64,000 nucleotides of DNA from contig NZ_CP042862.1 of the NCBI RefSeq assembly GCF_008001015.1, positions 3,100,001 through 3,164,000 on the forward strand, read 5' to 3'. Shown one piece after another: positions 18,557 through 52,904 of this stretch. The number at the start of each line of letters is the position of its first letter. The first letter of the stretch is position 1. The stretch comes from Serinicoccus profundi. Its GTDB lineage: Bacteria > Actinomycetota > Actinomycetes > Actinomycetales > Dermatophilaceae. The notes beneath the pieces are model-generated. The model saw only the letters and a list, made by a program, of their open reading frames with translations. It did not search any database and was not told the origin of the DNA. A program made the translations under genes and the position numbers.

Positions 18557-19547
18557 ATGCGAGCGATCACGATCCCCGAGCCCGGTGAAGCCGACGCCCT
18601 CGTCGCCGCCGACGTGCCCACCCCTGCTGCCGCCGCGGGCGAGGTGCTCGTCGACGTCGTCGCCGCGGGAGTCAACCGGGCCGACGTCATGCAGCGCAAG
18701 GGCGCCTACCCGCCCCCGCCCGGAGCCTCCGAGCTGCCCCGGGCTGGAGGTCAGCGGCCGCATCAGCGCCCTCGGCGAGGGCACGCAGGACTCGAGCTGG
18801 TCGGTCGGTGACGAGGTCTGCGCGCTGCTCGCCGGCGGAGGGTATGCCGAGACCGTCGCCGTCCCGGTCGGCCAGCTCCTACCCGTGCCCGACGGCATAC
18901 CCCTCGAGGACGCCGCCGCGCTGCCGGAGGTCGCCTGCACGGTCTGGAGCAACCTCGTCATGGAGGCCGGGCTGAGCCAGGGCGAGACGGTGCTGCTCCA
19001 CGGCGGCTCGAGCGGGATCGGCACGATGGCGATCCAGGTCGCCAGGGCGCTCGGCGCCCGGGTGGCGGTCACGGCCGGGTCGGCGGACAAGCTGGAGGCC
19101 TGCCGCGAGCTCGGCGCCGAGATCCTCATCAACTACCGCGAGCAGGACTTCGTGGAGGAGCTGCGCGCGGCGACCAACGGCGGCGGCGCCGACGTCATCC
19201 TCGACGTCGTCGGCGCGAAGTACCTCACCGACAACGTGCGCGCCCTGGCCGACGACGGGCGGCTCGTGGTGATCGGGCTGCTCGGTGGTCGCACCGGCGA
19301 GCTCGACCTGGGGGCGCTGCTGCGCAAGCGCGGCCGGGTGCAGGCGACCTCGCTGCGCTCCCGGTCCCTGACGGGCAAGGCCGAGATCGTCGCCCAGGTC
19401 CGTGAGCACGTCTGGCCCTGGGTCGCCGAGGGCCGGGTGCGGCCCCTCATCCAGTCCCGCCACCCGCTCGAGGACGCCGCGGCGGCGCACCGTGAGATGG
19501 AGGCCAGCCAGCACATCGGCAAGATCCTGCTCACCGTGCAGGCGTAG
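18557..19547 (+). pseudogene. NADPH:quinone oxidoreductase-like gene with a single-base frameshift
   Basis: Zinc-free MDR-family reductase of about 330 residues. The first frame reads MRAITIPEPGEADALVAADV to GASELP; the frame then breaks at the C-run 18737-18740 (GCCCCGGG) and the second frame continues GLEVSGRISALGEG, LLHGGSSGIGTMAIQVARALGA (NADPH-binding), and the C-terminal QHIGKILLTVQA. Removing one C restores the whole protein. The remainder is intact with no other stop, so this is a very recent loss, a sequencing or assembly error in a homopolymer, or rarely a recoded gene. It starts 51 nt after mraY. Confidence 0.85.
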
Positions 19548-19605
19548 GAGCGCCGGCAGCTCACCGTGCAGGCGGAGGGGGCGCCGGCCGCTCACCGTGC
19601 GCGCC
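19548..19605 (+). repeat. Short tandem duplication of the preceding gene's 3' end
   Basis: The last bases of the oxidoreductase gene (GCTCACCGTGCAGGCG) recur twice more downstream with a spacing of about 31 nt, each followed by a GCGCCGGC-like stretch, the third copy degenerate. It looks like slippage or unequal recombination at the gene end. Confidence 0.6.
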
Positions 19606-19652
19606 GATCGCGGGGGCCTTCCTGAGCAAGCCGGCGTTGCCCTGAGGCGACC

Positions 19653-19716
19653 TGAGCAAGCTGAGTCCCTACGCTGCACCACTGCATTGCTGCAGCGTGC
19701 GGACTCACCTTGCTCA
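19653..19716. repeat. Long palindrome with 26-nt arms, copy 2
   Basis: Arms 19653-19678 and 19691-19716 are inverted copies with three mismatches around a 12-nt loop. The arm core matches the palindrome at 6375-6432. Here it lies between convergent genes and could also terminate transcription; a partial extra copy of the outer arm (CCTGAGCAAG) is at 19621. Confidence 0.75.
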
Positions 19717-43798: not shown

Positions 43799-46700
43799 AT
43801 GTCACGCCTCACGCTCTTCAGCGTCCGCAACCGAGCTCTCATCGCGCTGGCCACCCTCTTCAGCATCCTGGCGGGGCTGTGGTCGGCGAGCAGCCTGCCG
43901 CGCGAGCTCTTCCCGTCGCTGCAGTTCCCGGTGCTCGTCGTCGCGACGTCGACCCCGGGGTCGAGCGCCTCGGTCGTCGAGGAGCAGGTGACCGAGCCGG
44001 TCGAGGTCGCGGCGCAGGGGCTCAACAACGTCGTCGAGGTGACCTCGACGAGCACCGACGGCTTCTCCTCCGTCATCGTCGAGCTCGACTACGGCACCCA
44101 GATGGGCGCCGCGCAGACCGACCTGCAGCGCGCCGTGCTGGCCCTGCCCGACCTGCCGGACACCGCGACGCCGCAGATCTTCGCCGGCAACCTCGACGAC
44201 TTCCCGATCATCCAGCTCGCCGCGAGCGGCGGTTCGGACGCCCAGGACCTCGTCGACCGGCTCGAGCGCCTCGTCGTGCCCCAGATCGAGGACATCGACG
44301 GCGTCCGCTCCGTCACCCTCTCCGGCGTCGCCGACCGCGTCGTCACCATCGACCTGGACGAGGAGGCCGCGGCCGAGGCCGGTGTCACCACGAGCGCGGT
44401 CAGCCAGGTGCTGCAGGCCAACGGTGTCGTCCTGCCCGGTGGCCAGGTGCTCGACGGCGAGACCGACCTTCCCGTGCAGGTCGGCTCGCGGCTGACCTCC
44501 GCCGAGCAGATCGCCAACCTCCCGCTGCTCACCCAGCAGACGATCGGCGCCCAGCAGGCCGCCACCCAGGCGCAGGCTCAGGTCGGCGAGACCCAGCAGG
44601 CTGCGGACGACGCGGCCGAGGCCGCTGCTGCCGCGCCGCAGGACCCCGAGCTGGCGGCCCAGGCCGCTGCTGCGGCCGCCGCTGCCGAGCAGGCCGCCGC
44701 GGCGGCGGAGCAGGCGGGCGAGGTCGAGATCCCCCTCCTGGCCGACGTCGCCACCGTGACGCTGGAGGAGCGGGACGCGACGGCATACACGCGGACCAAC
44801 GGAGAGCCCAGCGTCGGCCTGGCGATCACCAAGACGCCCGACGGCAACGCGGTCGAGATCTCCCACGAGCTGGAGGCGTTGGAGACCGAGATCGGGACCG
44901 CGCTGGACGGTGGCGAGCTGGTGACGATCTACGACGGCGCGCCGTTCATCGAGAAGTCCATCGAGGACCTCGCGACCGAGGGGCTGCTCGGCCTCGGCTT
45001 CGCCATCCTCGTCGTGCTCGTCTTCCTGCTGTCGGTGCGGCTCACCCTGGTCACAGCGCTGTCGATCCCGCTGTCGCTGCTCATCGCGCTGGTCGGGCTG
45101 CAGGTGGCCGGCTACAGCCTCAACATCCTCACCCTCGGCGCGCTGACCATCGCCGTCGGTCGCGTCGTCGACGACTCCATCGTGGTCATCGAGAACATCA
45201 AGCGGCACATCGCCCGGGGTGACGACCGGCGGACCGCGGTGGTCGAGGCGACCCGTGAGGTGGCCGGCGCGATCACCTCGGCGACCATCGCCACCGTCGC
45301 GGTCTTCCTGCCGCTGGGCTTCGTCGGCGGGCAGGTGGGTGAACTGTTCCGGCCGTTCGCCGTCACCGTGTCGCTGGCGATGCTCGCCTCGCTGCTCGTC
45401 GCGCTGACGATCATCCCGGTGCTGGGCTACTGGTTCCTCGGCAACCGTGGGCGGGTCGGCCGGCACGAGGAGGAGTCCCCGCTCACCGAGGCGGACGACT
45501 CCCCCGACCGGTTGCAGCGCGCATACCTGCCCGTCCTGCGCACCGCGCTCGCCCGCCCCTGGCTGACCGTGCTGCTCGCGCTGCTCGTCCTCGGCGGCAC
45601 GGGGTATGCCGCGACCCTGCTCAAGACCGACTTCATCGGCAGCTCCGGCGAGAACAGCCTGCAGGCGACCCTCTCCATGCCCACCGGGACGACGCTGGAC
45701 GACACCGACGCGCAGGCCGCCGAGGTCGAGGAGTGGCTGGCCGAGCAGGACGAGGTCGAGACCTACCAGGTGACCGCCGGGAGCCCGGGCGGCATCGAGG
45801 CGGTCTTCCTCGGCAGCGGGACCAACACGGCGACCTTCGCCCTCACCCTCGCCGACGGCGTCGACGGGGAGAGCTTCGGGGCCGAGCTGACCAGCGCCGT
45901 CGAGCTCCCGGAGGAGGCGACCTTCACCGCGCAGGCCGGCCAGCAGATGGGTGGCGCGAGCAGCCTGGAGGTCCAGGTGCAGGGCCAAGAGGTCGAGGAC
46001 CTGCGCACGGCGGCCGACGAGGTCACCGAGCTCATGACCGACGCCGGCGCGCTGGACGTCACCAACAACCTCACCGATACCGTGCCCGCCCTCAAGGTGG
46101 AGGTCGACCGTGAGGCGGCCGCGGCGGCCGGGCTGGCGGAGGCCCAGCTCGGGCAGGTCGTCCAGGCCGCGACCGACGGCGCGACCGTCGGGCAGGTGGA
46201 GATCGACGCCTCCCGCGTCGACGTCGTCGTCCAGCAGGGCGAGGCCCAGGACCTGGAGGCGCTGCGCGAGTTGGAGGTCAGCACCGACACCGCCGGTGAG
46301 CCGGTGCTGCTCGACGATGTCGCCGACCTGCGGACGGTCGAGGAGGCGGTCAGCGTCACCCGGGTCGACGGGCTGCGTGCGGCCACCGTCACCGGCCGGT
46401 CCACGAGCGACGACCTCGGGGCGCTCACCGCCGACCTGCAGCAGCGCATCGACGGTCTGGACACCCCCGAGGGTGTGGAGGTCAGCCTCGGCGGCGTCAG
46501 CTCCGACCAGCAGGCCGCCTTCCAGGCGCTCGGCCTGGCGCTGCTCGCCGCCATCGCGATCGTCTACCTCGTCATGGTGGCGACCTTCAACTCCCTCGTG
46601 CAGCCGCTCATCCTGCTCGTGTCGGTGCCCTTCGCGGCGACCGGCTCGATCGGGTTGCTGCTGCTCACGGACACCCCGCTCGACGTGGCCTCCATGGTCG

Positions 46701-47071
46701 GCATGCTCATGCTCATCGGCATCGTCGTGACCAACGCGATCGTGCTCATCGACCTCGTCAACCAGTACCGCGACCGCGGGCTCGGCCGCACCGAGGCCGT
46801 GCTCGAGGGGTCGCGCCACCGCTTCCGGCCGATCGTCATGACCGCGCTCGCGACGATCCTCGCGCTGACGCCCATGGCCTTCGCGATCACCGGGGGCGGG
46901 GCCTTCATCTCCCAGCCGCTCGCGATCGTCGTCATCGGCGGCCTCATCAGCTCCACGCTGCTGACGCTCATCCTCGTGCCGGTGCTCTACGAGCTCGTCG
47001 GCCGCGGGTCGGCCTGGGCGAGCGGGCTGCGCGGGCGGCGCGGGGAGCGGCGGGAGCGTCGGGCTGCCTGA
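43799..47071 (+). CDS. RND-superfamily efflux transporter
   Basis: A 1090-residue HAE-type RND permease with 12 membrane segments: one at the N-terminus (ALIALATLFSILAGLWSASSLP), six after residue 390, and a second set after residue 900. The proton-relay region includes GRVVDDSIVVIENIKRHI, and LMLIGIVVTNAIVLIDLVNQYRDRG marks the second half. Residues about 247-308 form an Ala/Gln/Glu-rich, probably coiled-coil insert (QAQAQVGETQQAADDAAEA) within the porter domain. No adaptor or outer-membrane channel gene is nearby, as expected for a monoderm. Confidence 0.92.
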   Translation: MSRLTLFSVRNRALIALATLFSILAGLWSASSLPRELFPSLQFPVLVVATSTPGSSASVVEEQVTEPVEVAAQGLNNVVEVTSTSTDGFSSVIVELDYGTQMGAAQTDLQRAVLALPDLPDTATPQIFAGNLDDFPIIQLAASGGSDAQDLVDRLERLVVPQIEDIDGVRSVTLSGVADRVVTIDLDEEAAAEAGVTTSAVSQVLQANGVVLPGGQVLDGETDLPVQVGSRLTSAEQIANLPLLTQQTIGAQQAATQAQAQVGETQQAADDAAEAAAAAPQDPELAAQAAAAAAAAEQAAAAAEQAGEVEIPLLADVATVTLEERDATAYTRTNGEPSVGLAITKTPDGNAVEISHELEALETEIGTALDGGELVTIYDGAPFIEKSIEDLATEGLLGLGFAILVVLVFLLSVRLTLVTALSIPLSLLIALVGLQVAGYSLNILTLGALTIAVGRVVDDSIVVIENIKRHIARGDDRRTAVVEATREVAGAITSATIATVAVFLPLGFVGGQVGELFRPFAVTVSLAMLASLLVALTIIPVLGYWFLGNRGRVGRHEEESPLTEADDSPDRLQRAYLPVLRTALARPWLTVLLALLVLGGTGYAATLLKTDFIGSSGENSLQATLSMPTGTTLDDTDAQAAEVEEWLAEQDEVETYQVTAGSPGGIEAVFLGSGTNTATFALTLADGVDGESFGAELTSAVELPEEATFTAQAGQQMGGASSLEVQVQGQEVEDLRTAADEVTELMTDAGALDVTNNLTDTVPALKVEVDREAAAAAGLAEAQLGQVVQAATDGATVGQVEIDASRVDVVVQQGEAQDLEALRELEVSTDTAGEPVLLDDVADLRTVEEAVSVTRVDGLRAATVTGRSTSDDLGALTADLQQRIDGLDTPEGVEVSLGGVSSDQQAAFQALGLALLAAIAIVYLVMVATFNSLVQPLILLVSVPFAATGSIGLLLLTDTPLDVASMVGMLMLIGIVVTNAIVLIDLVNQYRDRGLGRTEAVLEGSRHRFRPIVMTALATILALTPMAFAITGGGAFISQPLAIVVIGGLISSTLLTLILVPVLYELVGRGSAWASGLRGRRGERRERRAA

Positions 47072-47094
47072 CGCTGGCGGCAGGCGTGGACCGG

Positions 47095-47635
47095 CCCGCC
47101 GGCGGTGAGGATCCCTGCGCGTGCACCGATCCTCCCCGGATGCGCCACCCCCGGCGGTGAGGATCCCTACGTGTGCACCGATCCTCCCCGGATAAGCGGC
47201 CCCCGGCGGAGAGGATCCCTTCGCGTGCACCGATCCTCCCCGAACGGACGGTCGAGCGCGCGTCCGGCGTCTCGGTCAGTCGGTGAGGCGGGGCTGCGGT
47301 ATGCCGGCCCGGCGCCTGTCCCTGTCGCGCGGCCTGCCGCGGACGGCGTCCGGTGGGGAGGATGCCTGCGCGCGAACCGAACCTCCCCGGATGCGCCACC
47401 CCCGGCGGCGAGGATGCCTGCGTGTGTACCGATCCTCCCCGGATCGGCGGCGTCCGGTGGGGAGGATGCCTGCGCGTGCACCGATCCTCCCCGGATGCGC
47501 CACCCCCGGCGGCGAGGATCCCTGCGTGTGCACCGATCCTCCCCGGATGAGCGGGCTCCGGCGGGGAGGATCCCTGCGCGTGCACCGATCCTCCCCAGGG
47601 CGCCGCTTCGGGCTGACGGGCGTCGGGCGTGTCGG
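47095..47635. repeat. 52-bp tandem repeats with embedded hairpins and a copied gene end
   Basis: GAGGAT starts of the unit lie at 47107, 47159, 47211 and then 47358, 47410, 47462, 47514, 47566, exactly 52 bp apart inside each group. Each unit contains GGGGAGGATC and GATCCTCCCC arms (or close) around a 14-nt loop with GTGCAC. Between the groups, 47265-47335 is a near copy of 47625-47696, which is the 3' end and stop of the downstream minus-strand gene. The region thus looks like repeated unequal recombination. No spacer diversity, so not CRISPR. Confidence 0.9.
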
Positions 47636-50272
47636 TCAGTCGGTGAGGCGGGGGCTGCGGTATGCCGCCCCGGCGCCTGTCCCCGTCGCGGCGGCGGCGC
47701 GGCCGCAGCGCCACACGGCATACACCTGGGCGGGGTGGCCGAGCACCGCACCGACGTGGGTCTGCAGGGCGCTCGCCGAGGTCGGTGAGTCCAGCAGCTC
47801 GCTGAGCGGGTGGGCCGACCAGCCGGCGCGCTCGGCGGCGAGCCAGACGCCGAGCAGCCCGCCGCCGAGGGGGCCCAGCTCGTCGAGGCCCAATCCGGGC
47901 GGGCCCCAGAGCGCGACGACCGCACCGCGCGGCCGGACCTCGCTGACCCGAGCCACCAACCGATCCAGACGGGTGGCGCCCAGGACACGACGGGCGAGGC
48001 CGGAGCCGGTGAGCAGACCCAGCCCGCGCGCCTCCACCGGGCTCAGCCGCATCGCTGCCGCGCTCAGGCCGTCCAGGTCGTGGCGCGGGTGCGCTGGCGT
48101 CAGCCGCAGCCACTCCCGCAGCTCGCTGGCCGCCGGGCCGGTGAGCGTGCGAGCGGTGGCGCCGGGGAGCAGGTCGTCGACGAGGGCGTCCGGCAGGACC
48201 AGCAGACCCGTGCCAGCCGGCAGCTGCGCCAGGTCCGCGAGCGACGAGACTTCCTCAGGGGTGGGCTGCTGCTCGTAGGCGGCGCGGACGGTCGAGCGGG
48301 CGTGCAGCTCGGCCACCGACCAGGCGAGCCTGGGGCCCTGCCCATCACTGAGCCGGATCACCGCTGCCTGCCGGGCCCCGACAGCGACACCCCATTCGAC
48401 CTCGGCCATCAGCCCGAGCTCCGCGGCAACGACCTGCAGGCTCAACGCCACGGCGCCCAGGGACAGCAGGAGGTCGCGATGAGTCGGGTCGGCGACCGGG
48501 AGCGCACGCTCGGCGTGCCAGCCGAGCCGCAGGGTCACGTCGTCGAGGGCGCGGACGTCCCACGGCTGGGTGTTGTGCGCACTGGGCGCCCTCCCCCAGT
48601 CGGCCGCGCGGGCGAGCAGGCGACTCGCCGGCGAGGCATCGGCCGTCGCGGCCCCGTGACCCTCGGCTGAGCCGGTCTCATCACGCACGTCCACCGCCCG
48701 CGTGTAGAAGCACGTCCCGTGCAGGGGACGCCCGCCCATCGCCACGAACTGCGACTGCGAGCCCGCGTTGTCGTGCTCGACGAAGGTGACGCGCAGCGCG
48801 GCATACCCTCCGGCCTGCAGCCCCTCGAGCAGCTCCCGGGACAGGTGCCGCATGAGCCCCTGCCCGCGCGCACCCGGCACCGTCCCCTTGATGATGAGCA
48901 CGGCGTCGCGGCGGTAACGGCCCTTGGTGACCAGCAGCCGCGCCAGGTCGACCGGCCCGAGCCGCCCCCCGGTCGAGCGGACGAAAGCGGTGAGGTCTGG
49001 CACGACCAGGACGAAGGCCACCGGCTCCCCGTCCCGCTCCAGCCAGAGCAGCAGGCGCTCGTCGAGCAGGTGCGCCAGCCCGTCGGTCGCCGCCGCGAGC
49101 TCGTCGGCCTCGATCTGGGTGAAGTAGCCGAGCTCGGCGAAGGCGGCGTTGAGCATCTGGCGCAGCACCGGCAGCTGTTCGTCGAGGCGTCTGCGGTCGG
49201 CCTGACGCAGGACTACGCCCTCGGGCAGCGCGCCGACCGGGAAGATCGTGGTCGGGTCGAGTGAGCCGAGGTCGGGGCAGACCCATGTGGAGCCCTCCCA
49301 GATCCGCTCGAAGCCCAGCGCCTCCCAGTCGCGGTGGTAGTGGGAGGGGGTCCACGGACCGTCGAGGAAGCCCGGCTCCTCCCAGCCCGAGGTCACGACG
49401 CCGCCGACCTGGTTGGGCAGGAGCGACACCGGGCCGAGCAACCGGGTGCGGCCACGCTCGCGCGCGACGGCCTCGGCGTGCTCCACCAGCGCAGCGAGTG
49501 CCGGAGCGCCGGCGAACTCGGTGGCGCCCATGAGCAGGACGCGCTCGCCGAGCTTGGCGTCCATCCGCTCGTCGGTATGCAGTGTCGTGCGCCCTGCCAC
49601 GCCACCCCAGGGGTCCCGGACGAGGTAGAGCTCGACCGCCCCGTGCCGGCGGTGCGGCCCCTTGCCCCTCCACCAGGACCGGATGGTGCTGTGCCACAGC
49701 GGGACTCCGTGGGTCTCCCGCGGGGTGCCCCAGGGCTGCACCCTGAGGAAGGCCCGCAGGTCGTGGCGGATGCGGACCGGCACCACCAGGAAGCCGGGCG
49801 ACGCCGTCGTGGTTGCTGTCGGTGTCGTGGCAGCTCGACCCCGGTCAGCGGTCGACCTCGCGGCATCCGTCGTCGATCTGGGCTGTCGAGCCACCGTCGG
49901 CCCGACACCCTCCGCCCCGATCGGGCTGAACCGTTCGATGTGCGCCATCACCCCGTCCTCGGCACGCCACACCCCGTTGCTGTAGCCGTCCGGCTCCGCG
50001 TCGTGCACCTGGACGAGACCCCCCGGACCCACCTGCACCCGCCGGATCGCGGCCTGCGCGGCGGCCTGATCGGCATACCAGGCGATGACGCCGACCCGGC
50101 GCACCCCGGCACGCAGCCACTCCCGGCGGACGAGGCCGTCGCCCTGCACCGCCTCGACCGCCCGCCTGCGCCAGCGCGGGGTCGATCGGCCGTCCCGTGG
50201 CTCGACGGTGATCATGACCTTTGCCCGGGCCAGCGGTGGCGCGGCGGAGAAGTCACGAGTGCGCATCGTCAC
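47636..50272 (-). CDS. Fusion of GNAT-type acyltransferase and nitroreductase-like domains
   Basis: An 878-residue protein. Residues 1-125 are a small alpha/beta domain (AKVMITVEPRDGRS to GVMAHIERFSPIG) of monooxygenase/ABM character; a Thr/Ala linker follows. Residues about 160-520 form a double-GNAT-like region: FLVVPVRIRHDLRAFLRVQP, RTRLLGPVSLLPNQVG, and the CoA-binding VPGARGQGLMRHLSRELLEG. Residues about 545-860 resemble an Acg/nitroreductase fold starting WGRAPSAHNTQPWDVR. The start could be 50266 (MRTRDF). It overlaps the upstream small gene by about 20 nt. The catalytic reaction is unknown. Confidence 0.78.
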   Translation of the reverse strand: MTMRTRDFSAAPPLARAKVMITVEPRDGRSTPRWRRRAVEAVQGDGLVRREWLRAGVRRVGVIAWYADQAAAQAAIRRVQVGPGGLVQVHDAEPDGYSNGVWRAEDGVMAHIERFSPIGAEGVGPTVARQPRSTTDAARSTADRGRAATTPTATTTASPGFLVVPVRIRHDLRAFLRVQPWGTPRETHGVPLWHSTIRSWWRGKGPHRRHGAVELYLVRDPWGGVAGRTTLHTDERMDAKLGERVLLMGATEFAGAPALAALVEHAEAVARERGRTRLLGPVSLLPNQVGGVVTSGWEEPGFLDGPWTPSHYHRDWEALGFERIWEGSTWVCPDLGSLDPTTIFPVGALPEGVVLRQADRRRLDEQLPVLRQMLNAAFAELGYFTQIEADELAAATDGLAHLLDERLLLWLERDGEPVAFVLVVPDLTAFVRSTGGRLGPVDLARLLVTKGRYRRDAVLIIKGTVPGARGQGLMRHLSRELLEGLQAGGYAALRVTFVEHDNAGSQSQFVAMGGRPLHGTCFYTRAVDVRDETGSAEGHGAATADASPASRLLARAADWGRAPSAHNTQPWDVRALDDVTLRLGWHAERALPVADPTHRDLLLSLGAVALSLQVVAAELGLMAEVEWGVAVGARQAAVIRLSDGQGPRLAWSVAELHARSTVRAAYEQQPTPEEVSSLADLAQLPAGTGLLVLPDALVDDLLPGATARTLTGPAASELREWLRLTPAHPRHDLDGLSAAAMRLSPVEARGLGLLTGSGLARRVLGATRLDRLVARVSEVRPRGAVVALWGPPGLGLDELGPLGGGLLGVWLAAERAGWSAHPLSELLDSPTSASALQTHVGAVLGHPAQVYAVWRCGRAAAATGTGAGAAYRSPRLTD

Positions 50273-50591
50273 CGCCAGGGGTATGCCGCCCGCTCGCCTG
50301 CTCGTAGACGCGGATGTAGCCGCCGGTCGCGTTGTTGGTGCCGTCGGTCACCCACTGCATGAGCTCGCGGTGCACCCCGCTGCGGGCGAAGCGCAGCAGG
50401 TCCTCGCGGGTGGCGAAGTAGCCGACGGTGCCGAGGGTGAACGGCGGGTCGTAGTAGACCTGATGGTGGACGTAGCCGGGCATCCGTTTCATCTGGTCGA
50501 CCATCGCCCGCCAGCGCGGGGCGAGGCGCAGCCAGGCGGCCGGCGAGGCATACCGCGTCGCCCCGACGAAGACCGCCCCCGCTAGCTCCAT
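50253..50591 (-). CDS. Small ABM/DUF4188-like protein
   Basis: A 112-residue protein (MELAGAVFVGATRYASPAAW) with a ferredoxin-like pattern: MVDQMKRMPGYVHHQVYYDPPFTLGTVGYFATREDLLRFA. It resembles antibiotic-biosynthesis-monooxygenase-type or DUF4188 proteins. Its ATG shares a base with the stop of the PaaK-like gene (TGATG) and its end overlaps the fusion gene, so the three are tightly coupled. The N-terminal domain of the fusion protein appears related in type. Confidence 0.7.
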   Translation of the reverse strand: MELAGAVFVGATRYASPAAWLRLAPRWRAMVDQMKRMPGYVHHQVYYDPPFTLGTVGYFATREDLLRFARSGVHRELMQWVTDGTNNATGGYIRVYEQASGRHTPGGDDAHS

Positions 50592-52186
50592 CAGGCCCCG
50601 GTGCCCTTGGAGAGGTAGACCCGCTTGAGCTTGTCCGGGAGCGCGGCGAACGGCCCGGCGCCGGCGTCGTGCACCCGGACCTCGATGTCGTCGCTGCGGT
50701 CGGACTCCTCCAGTGACTGGGCGAAGTCGCGGCTGGTTCGCGCGAGGTAGTCAACCACCCCGTCGCCCACCTCGGCCGCCATCGTCACCCGCTCGTCGTC
50801 GGTGAGCGCGACGTCTTCGCGCAGCTCGAGGTGGATCGTCGGCTGCTGCCGGGTCGCGTCGCCGTCCACGTCCTCGAGGGTGAGGGTGAAGGAGCCGATC
50901 TGGGCGGCGCGCTGCTGGTCGGTGTAGAGGCCGTTCTCGACGTCCTGGGGGTAGATGTTGGCCCCCATGAAGGAGATCGTGGCGTCGGCGCGGCCGAAGA
51001 GCAGCAGCAGCGGCAGCTTCATCCCCTGCCGCTCGAAGGCCTCCCGGGCCGGCGCCTGCCACTGCGGCTGGCTGCGCAGGACGGCAGCCAGGTCGTGCCA
51101 GTCCATGAGCCGCGCCTCGTCGCCGATGTTGTAGCGCAGCTTGGGCGAGAGCACGGCGGTCGAGGTGAGCGTGCAGAGCAGCTCGCCCTCGGGGGTGGTC
51201 TCGAGGTAGGTCTCGAGCGGGTTGTACTGGAAGATCATCGGCGTGCGGGCCTCCCCCGGCCCGAGCACCGCCTCGCGCAGGTCGTGGTCCTCCAGCAGCG
51301 CGCGGCGCAGCCAGACGGTGAGGTCGGTCTCGCCGCCGATGCCGATGGTCAGGTCTGATGCGCCATACCCGGAGCGGACGGTGAGGAAACGCTCCTCGCA
51401 GTAGTCGCGCAGCGCCTCGGTCATGCCCTCGCCGCCGACGAGCCCGTGCATCCGCCAGGCCGGCCAGTCCCAGCCCTCGGCGTCGAGCCGGTCGCGCAGG
51501 TCCTTGAGGAAGGGCGGGTAGGCCGCGACGAGGTAGGTGAAGCTCGGCCCGAAATGGCGCAGGGTGTCGACGATCTTGTCGAGGTCAGGGCCGGTGTTCT
51601 TGACCATGGCGATCTTGGCCATCGCGATGCCGGTGTTGGTGCCGGTCGCCCACGCGCCCATGGAGTAGGCGTTGATGACGTAGAGCCGCTCCTCGTCGCG
51701 CATCATCAACGAGGTGAAGCCGGCGACGTTGCGGTGGATGTCCTCGAGCTCGTCCTTGCCCCGGACCCAGTTGAACGGGCGGCCGGAGGAGCCGGACGAC
51801 TCGTCCACGATCGTGCCGCGCAGTTCGAGGCGACCGGTGCGCGAGCGCGCCGCCTCGTCATACCGCTGGACGTAGGACGCCTTGTCGGTCGGAGGGTAGT
51901 TCTCCAGGTCCCACCAGCGGAAACGCCAGTCGTGCTCGGCGAGGTGCTGACGGTATGCCGGCACGTGCAGCGACCCCAGCTGGCAGGTCATCCAGGCGTG
52001 CAGCCGCGCGAACTCGCCCATCCACGGCTGGTAGTGGGTCGCGGTGAAGCGCCACGTGGCCGGGTGGACCTTGTAGAGGCTGTAGGTCGTGGTGAGCGCC
52101 CGGGTGCCCGCCTTGAGCGCACTCCGCCGCGTCGCCGTCAGCGGCGCACTCGTCCACGCCTTCGTCCCGATCTCCCGCCATCCCAT
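50591..52186 (-). CDS. PaaK-like adenylate-forming enzyme (COG1541)
   Basis: A 531-residue protein of the phenylacetate-CoA ligase/capsule PaaK-like type. The ATP-binding loop is IVDESSGSSGRPFNWVRG at about residues 126-143; RSGYGASDLTIGIGGETDL and LRYNIGDEARLMDWHDL follow, then a C-terminal domain with LFGRADATISFMGANIYPQD. It should activate a carboxylic acid as the acyl-AMP, with transfer to CoA, an amine or a carrier. First gene of the coupled cluster with the ABM-like and GNAT-nitroreductase genes. Confidence 0.88.
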   Translation of the reverse strand: MGWREIGTKAWTSAPLTATRRSALKAGTRALTTTYSLYKVHPATWRFTATHYQPWMGEFARLHAWMTCQLGSLHVPAYRQHLAEHDWRFRWWDLENYPPTDKASYVQRYDEAARSRTGRLELRGTIVDESSGSSGRPFNWVRGKDELEDIHRNVAGFTSLMMRDEERLYVINAYSMGAWATGTNTGIAMAKIAMVKNTGPDLDKIVDTLRHFGPSFTYLVAAYPPFLKDLRDRLDAEGWDWPAWRMHGLVGGEGMTEALRDYCEERFLTVRSGYGASDLTIGIGGETDLTVWLRRALLEDHDLREAVLGPGEARTPMIFQYNPLETYLETTPEGELLCTLTSTAVLSPKLRYNIGDEARLMDWHDLAAVLRSQPQWQAPAREAFERQGMKLPLLLLFGRADATISFMGANIYPQDVENGLYTDQQRAAQIGSFTLTLEDVDGDATRQQPTIHLELREDVALTDDERVTMAAEVGDGVVDYLARTSRDFAQSLEESDRSDDIEVRVHDAGAGPFAALPDKLKRVYLSKGTGA

Positions 52187-52541: not shown

Positions 52542-52547
52542 CCCTTG

Positions 52548-52904
52548 GTGTACCTGACCACCGAGGACCTGCTCACCCTGGCAGCAGACCTGGGCGTCGG
52601 TCCGGTCCAGGACCTTGGCCTGCTGGACTCCGCGGCCCACCGCCCCAGCGCCAGCGTCTTCGGACATGATGCCTACCCCGGCATCGACGCGAAGGCGGGG
52701 GCGCTGCTGGAGTCCATCGTCGTCAATCACGCGCTGGTTGATGGCAACAAGCGCCTGGGCTGGCTCGCGGTGGTCGTGTTCTACGGCCTCAACGGCGTCG
52801 ACTTCCAAGCACCCGACGACGACGCCTACGACCTGGTCATCGCCGTCGCCAGCGGCAAGGCCGACCACCAGGTGGCAGCCCGCCACCTGGCCCAGTGGCA
52901 CTAA
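52548..52904 (+). CDS. doc: Doc-type Fic-fold toxin
   Basis: A 118-residue protein of the Doc family, which phosphorylates EF-Tu in the characterised P1 example. The Fic motif is HALVDGNKRLGWLAV near residue 62, matching HxFx(D/N)GNKR except Leu for Phe. VYLTTEDLLTLAADLG and DLGLLDSAAHRPSASVFG are typical of the N-terminal part. GTG 52548 or TTG 52545 starts it. Bacterial module with the preceding RHH antitoxin; it marks the left edge of the accessory block. Confidence 0.93.
   Translation: MYLTTEDLLTLAADLGVGPVQDLGLLDSAAHRPSASVFGHDAYPGIDAKAGALLESIVVNHALVDGNKRLGWLAVVVFYGLNGVDFQAPDDDAYDLVIAVASGKADHQVAARHLAQWH

Follow-up and report, generated by a model that had tools for sequence, protein, structure and literature searches.

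Acyl-oxazolone lipids have been linked to genes only in recent years. The described pathways, oxzAB in Pseudoalteromonas rubra, tyzABC, and trzAS in Mycobacterium tuberculosis, combine an N-acyltransferase, an adenylating ThiF cyclase and a flavin-dependent oxidase (FDO), and the last two are fused in the OxzB and TrzS proteins (PMC10404671, PMC12856293). Genes for ThiF, nitroreductase and N-acyl amino acid synthase proteins are found in producers of N-acyl dehydrotyrosines (PMC12479983). Published searches for further clusters started from ThiF, or from FDO sequences in its vicinity. Outside the oxazolone systems, the adenylate formed by NatL2, a PaaK-family enzyme, is released to a non-CoA nucleophile in the course of oxazole formation (PMC7204872), and the Af470 protein of fumagillin biosynthesis carries out oxidative cleavage (PMC7020470).

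The window, a stretch of 64,000 nucleotides from the 3.48-Mb genome of Serinicoccus profundi, contains three overlapping genes, all on the minus strand (47636–52186), whose products resemble parts of these systems. Our analysis points to a self-contained biosynthetic unit for a small N-acylated, lipid-like metabolite that would be formed by N-acylation, activation and flavin-dependent oxidation, a reading that we consider plausible, though short of probable.

Gene 1 (50591–52186, ATG start, 531 aa) encodes a PaaK-like ANL adenylating enzyme, and gene 2 (50253–50591, 112 aa) encodes ABM1, a small ABM/af470-like protein without the terminal motifs MRTxDFSAAP and GYxNG. Gene 3 encodes a fusion of a second ABM domain (ABM2), a GNAT region and an FDO domain. 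Its open reading frame (47636–50272, 878 codons) was listed with a GTG start at 50272; the most likely start is the ATG at 50266, because relatives begin with MRTxDFSAAP, and the proposed gene spans 47636–50266. With this start, the overlap between genes 2 and 3 is 14 nt long, and the TGA stop of gene 1 and the ATG of gene 2 have one base in common in a TGATG junction. The overlaps suggest translational coupling only; the fixed stoichiometry that the sequence-only reading had derived from them is unsupported. A promoter scan upstream of gene 1 detected nothing, and at a guess the TAGAGT about 6 nt ahead of its ATG would suit a leaderless transcript. No tRNA was found near the locus.

Immediately upstream of the operon, on the opposite strand, lies a gene for a Doc-type (death-on-curing) toxin (52545–52904). 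On the other side, the gene for an AcrB-type RND transporter (43799–47071) is convergent with the cassette, with no functional tie implied, and the two convergent genes are separated by an array of about ten intergenic 52-bp repeats (47094–47596). The repeat core GGGGAGGATCGGTGCAC occurs 69 times genome-wide with up to two mismatches, in many clusters and often at a spacing of 52 bp; the reversed control gave 0 occurrences. The C-terminal tail of the fusion (47639–47689, residues 862–878) and the last FDO codons are inside a 70-bp stretch (47636–47705) that recurs at 89% identity within this array (47276–47345).

The coupled cluster proved to be real. A genome-neighbourhood search recovered the order PaaK–ABM–GNAT–FDO on one strand in all 37 complete relatives, so the arrangement is not a matter of chance; the number overstates the independent cases in that a few loci are the same genome reached by two routes or near-identical strains. 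The hosts are Micrococcales, Corynebacterium, Nonomuraea and other actinobacterial families, and one Nonomuraea record from a plasmid collection bears the entire cassette. The distribution is sporadic. At the family level 11 of 120 genomes gave matches, at the order level 22 of 297 and at the phylum level 12 of 396, counts that include the own genome and, for the order and phylum, also relatives with PaaK and FDO only. A larger gene cluster was considered and rejected, as no further neighbour is conserved outside close relatives.

Most loci have four separate genes, as in Kytococcus aerolatus (L063) and Ornithinimicrobium sp. F0845 (L079), with those for GNAT and FDO always adjacent. These two are fused in three lineages, Serinicoccus/Ornithinimicrobium, a Brevibacterium-like group and Nesterenkonia, so that acyl transfer and oxidation are linked as well. 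The occurrence of the three genes apart in relatives, named in the sequence-only reading as a sign against it, was found in part: GNAT and FDO are split in most loci but always adjacent, and distant relatives have PaaK and FDO without ABM or GNAT. In Auritidibacter ignavus (L080), a fragment of a second GNAT/FDO copy (18899–19679) lies about 5 kb from a full cassette.

The most constant association is that of PaaK with FDO. Among distant PaaK relatives (about 30–42% identity), an FDO gene is directly adjacent, upstream or downstream, in 16 of 16 loci. Such pairs, without ABM or this GNAT, occur in Alphaproteobacteria, Patescibacteria and other Actinomycetota, and another member of the order encodes a natural PaaK–FDO fusion protein (L051, 8459–11158). 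Since the distant relatives retain only these two proteins, we regard the PaaK–FDO pair as the core of the cassette. The still more distant PaaK relatives L088, L161 and L162 have no FDO in the flanking DNA examined, and L091 is a PaaK fragment only. Upstream of the pair, two loci of one family have a tandem GNAT of another kind, and at two loci in Sphingomonas the gene directly before the pair encodes a phospholipid O-acyltransferase/acyl-ACP synthetase; an acyltransferase neighbour is missing at most pairs, which stand alone. In both Sphingomonas loci (L086, 5407–11395; L089, 5395–11398) the genes for a PRK06814-type acyl-ACP phospholipid O-acyltransferase, FDO and PaaK overlap.

A Pfam search of the gene 1 protein gave no match, and PaaK models are matched far under their cut-offs; the NCBIfam equivalog model of PaaK phenylacetate-CoA ligase, TIGR02155, gives 29.9 bits (cut-off 646). 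A profile of 42 PaaK-like sequences retrieves the PDB structures of PaaK1 and PaaK2. The predicted structure (pLDDT 85) has the PaaK fold, C-terminal domain included, and aligns with PaaK1 (2y27) over 406 residues with a Z score of 30.5 and rmsd of 3.2. Further structural neighbours are NatL2, AjiA1 and ClxA (Z about 26–27), and EhpF (3hgv; Z 19.2, 297 residues). The sequence contains the SSGSSGRP P-loop (51776–51799, minus strand, residues 130–137), the YGxS(D/E) and GR(x)D motifs and the C-terminal Lys. Residues S130, G132, G135, Y274–L279, D356, G398, R399, D401 and K521 are invariant over the 42 sequences. The carboxylate-activating role that had been read from the P-loop is supported by this fold and by the invariant core adenylation residues.

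The tandem GNAT region of the fusion (48680–49807, residues 156–531) matches tandem GNAT structures in its predicted structure (Z 20–23). The GNAT profile aligns with Escherichia coli YghO along its full length (104 bits, 365 positions), and the best unrelated open reading frame scores 15 bits; YghO is listed under the name Aca as a ceramide N-acyltransferase (PMC9386255). By sequence, the GNAT is assigned to the YghO/bacterial ceramide synthase (bCerS) family. Judged by this family, it would be a dedicated N-acyltransferase such as the acyl-oxazolone clusters contain, of a subfamily different from that of TyzA and OxzA. In the scored loci, ABM and the YghO-type GNAT always co-occur, and never without PaaK and FDO. 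Lower-scoring actinobacterial GNATs of YghO/bCerS type (L171–L174, 110–141 bits) sit in other contexts, with no PaaK, ABM or FDO nearby.

ABM1 belongs to PF13826 (Monooxy_af470-like), with 27.1 bits at a gathering cut-off of 25. The ABM2 remnant (49898–50266, residues 3–125) is a decayed ABM body that retains MRTRDFSAAP and GYSNGVWRAE and reaches 14.8 bits with a custom ABM profile. The likeness between the start of the fusion and the separate ABM protein, already noticed in the sequence-only reading, is real though weak in the window, and intermediate sequences in relatives prove the ABM2 origin. Residues 95–155 have low pLDDT and are predicted to form a disordered linker between the ABM remnant and the tandem GNAT.

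In 21 single-ABM loci, the only ABM bears MRTxDFS as well as GYxNG at its termini. In each of the 15 two-ABM loci, one copy has a full body and neither terminal motif, and the body of the motif-bearing copy ranges from intact (185 bits in L079) to almost gone (about 10–15 bits in Serinicoccus and Subtercola); the second copy of L061 was detected by BLAST alone. The copies are arranged either as an ABM1 gene followed by an ABM2 gene or as ABM2–ABM1 within one protein, and the second layout is confined to one clade, a pattern that suggests two or more duplication events with a like result. We infer from these sequence patterns that the functions of the body and the termini can be separated, with the termini perhaps docking to the GNAT, the fusion partner of ABM2 in the window. 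On this reading, duplication would have dissected a small protein naturally into two separable functions: one copy loses the motifs at both ends, and the motif-bearing copy is left free to decay.

The FDO domain (47690–48643, residues 544–861) is of the Acg/nitroreductase type and aligns in its predicted structure with MsAcg (2ymv) over 289 residues (Z 28.6). The FMN-binding motif APSAHNTQPW (48560–48589, residues 562–571) follows the pattern PSxHNxQP, and its residues P563, S564, H566, N567, Q569 and P570 are conserved, together with two arginines, R659 and R663. The earlier description of gene 3 as a GNAT–Acg fusion holds; loss of FMN-binding residues was looked for and not seen. The Acg/Rv3131-type model NF047509 gives 109 bits at a cut-off of 199, and the domain scores higher with the Rv3131-type FDO-B model. 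In a tree of limited sampling (TyzC, OxzB and Acg are absent and the L051 branch is long), a branch with support of 100/96 divides all PaaK-linked FDOs from the Rv1355c-type FDO-A4 and Rv3131-type FDO-B5 proteins. The domain agrees with A4 and not with B5 at R723 and W810, and with B5 rather than A4 at H566, R589, W721 and D734. R723 was considered as the equivalent of TrzS Arg540, and hence as proof of an oxazolone oxidase, and was rejected; the 111-residue spacing between R and Q indicates a different, unconserved column. The positions mapped to Arg540 and Gln651 of TrzS, by spacing only and with uncertainty, are occupied by T709 and H821. The Arg540 column is not kept here, which counts against an oxazolone oxidase. 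A ThiF–FDO model had a single other match in the host genome, about 40 kb from the cassette.

In the favoured pathway, the YghO/bCerS-type GNAT would use acyl-CoA to acylate the amine of a substrate that resembles an amino acid, as its family suggests. The PaaK-type enzyme, with its intact motifs and fold, would adenylate the free carboxylate of the N-acyl product, and the adenylate could undergo an oxazolone-like ring closure or be captured by another nucleophile. The Acg-type FDO would use FMN and O2 to oxidise (desaturate) the product in its activated or cyclised form, a role that fits its family and its obligate pairing with PaaK. ABM may add a further oxygenation or act as a scaffold tied to the GNAT. 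We place the GNAT first and PaaK–FDO after it because FDO is the obligate partner of PaaK.

The sequence-only reading had put acyl-AMP formation before acyl transfer. Its idea of one pathway stands insofar as carboxylate-activating, acyl-transfer and flavin domains occur in one unit; its step order is the less likely one, because PaaK is obligately paired with the flavoenzyme and not with the GNAT. An acid-first route, in which PaaK makes an acyl-CoA by thioesterification, the GNAT acylates an amine with it, and ABM and FDO oxidise the amide, would agree with the complete C-terminal domain of PaaK and the invariant K521, with the use of acyl-CoA by the GNAT family, and with the position of PaaK as the first gene in all 37 loci. 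However, none of the 16 distant loci, where PaaK is paired with FDO, has this GNAT; the GNAT has been gained and lost, so that PaaK would not be there to feed it, and we consider this route unlikely. A modification of fatty acids or phospholipids, with PaaK activating a fatty acid, FDO desaturating the activated chain and the GNAT placing it on the amine of a membrane lipid to give a ceramide- or amino-lipid-like product, appears less likely still. The YghO/bCerS family of the GNAT, the lipid context of the Sphingomonas pairs, and FDO-B-like scores in a domain whose FDO-B relatives were proposed to desaturate lipids (PMC10404671) all speak for it. Against this, the four-gene cassette has no other linked lipid gene. 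The substrates of PaaK-family enzymes, moreover, are mostly aromatic or short acids.

The EhpF structure paper reportedly proposed that EhpF and EhpG reduce an acyl-AMP to an aldehyde in D-alanylgriseoluteic acid biosynthesis. A two-protein carboxylate reduction of this kind, in which the flavoenzyme would reduce the acyl-AMP made by PaaK, is consistent with the structural similarity of EhpF to the PaaK model and with the obligate pairing of an adenylator and a redox enzyme. EhpF is reported to lack a C-terminal domain, whereas gene 1 encodes one. EhpG is annotated as an aldehyde-dehydrogenase-type enzyme (PMC11278526), for which reason this reductase was dropped as the main model; the partner of PaaK here is of the Acg/nitroreductase type, and the characterised relatives of FDO are O2-dependent desaturases (PMC10404671, PMC12856293). 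We therefore rate carboxylate reduction as very unlikely.

Under the favoured order of N-acylation, activation and oxidation, an oxazolone as the actual product is possible but doubtful, since the two indirectly mapped TrzS residues are not conserved. The FDO is also outside the sampled ThiF-linked FDO-A4 clade, and the FDO-B group is not tied to oxazolones (PMC10404671). A broader proposal, which we hold to be somewhat unlikely, is a second, independent route to acyl-oxazolone-type compounds or dehydro-N-acyl amino acids, with a PaaK-type ANL enzyme in the role of the ThiF cyclase, a core PaaK–FDO pair spread across Actinomycetota, Alphaproteobacteria and Patescibacteria, and ABM as a new accessory activity. 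If true, the pairing would extend oxazolone chemistry to many genomes missed by ThiF-seeded searches, and nitroreductase-superfamily proteins of obscure role would gain a testable partner.

The GNAT is homologous to bCerS/YghO (Aca) over the full length, and no serine palmitoyltransferase or CerR gene was recognised adjacent to the cassette. The FDO shares its domain fold and FMN motif with MsAcg and M. tuberculosis Acg/Rv3131; unlike these, it belongs to an acyl-activation cassette and is GNAT-fused in the window. Fma-ABM (Af470) and ABM1 have the PF13826 family in common, and the cassette ABM is duplicated and partly decayed. The benzoxazole AMP ligases NatL2, AjiA1 and ClxA share the PaaK fold with gene 1, but these ligases have about 17% identity to it and act on aromatic amino-hydroxybenzoates, and the partner of NatL2 is a zinc amidohydrolase and not a flavoenzyme. 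EhpF/EhpG is likewise a PaaK-like adenylator paired with a redox enzyme, and to our knowledge has no GNAT or ABM.

The closest analogues are the oxz, tyz and trz pathways, whose small clusters likewise bring together a GNAT-fold N-acyltransferase, an ATP-dependent carboxylate activator and an Acg-superfamily FDO, and also contain fusions of activator and FDO (OxzB and TrzS, compared with the PaaK–FDO protein of L051). They differ in using a ThiF/E1 cyclase in place of a PaaK-type ANL enzyme and a FeeM/AHL-synthase-like acyltransferase in place of a YghO/bCerS tandem GNAT; the ABM protein is found only in the cassette, and the cassette FDO forms a separate clade. The locus had been called undescribed-looking, and we found no description of the cassette in the open literature searched, but given these analogues the cassette is a variant of known biosynthetic logic and not a new category.
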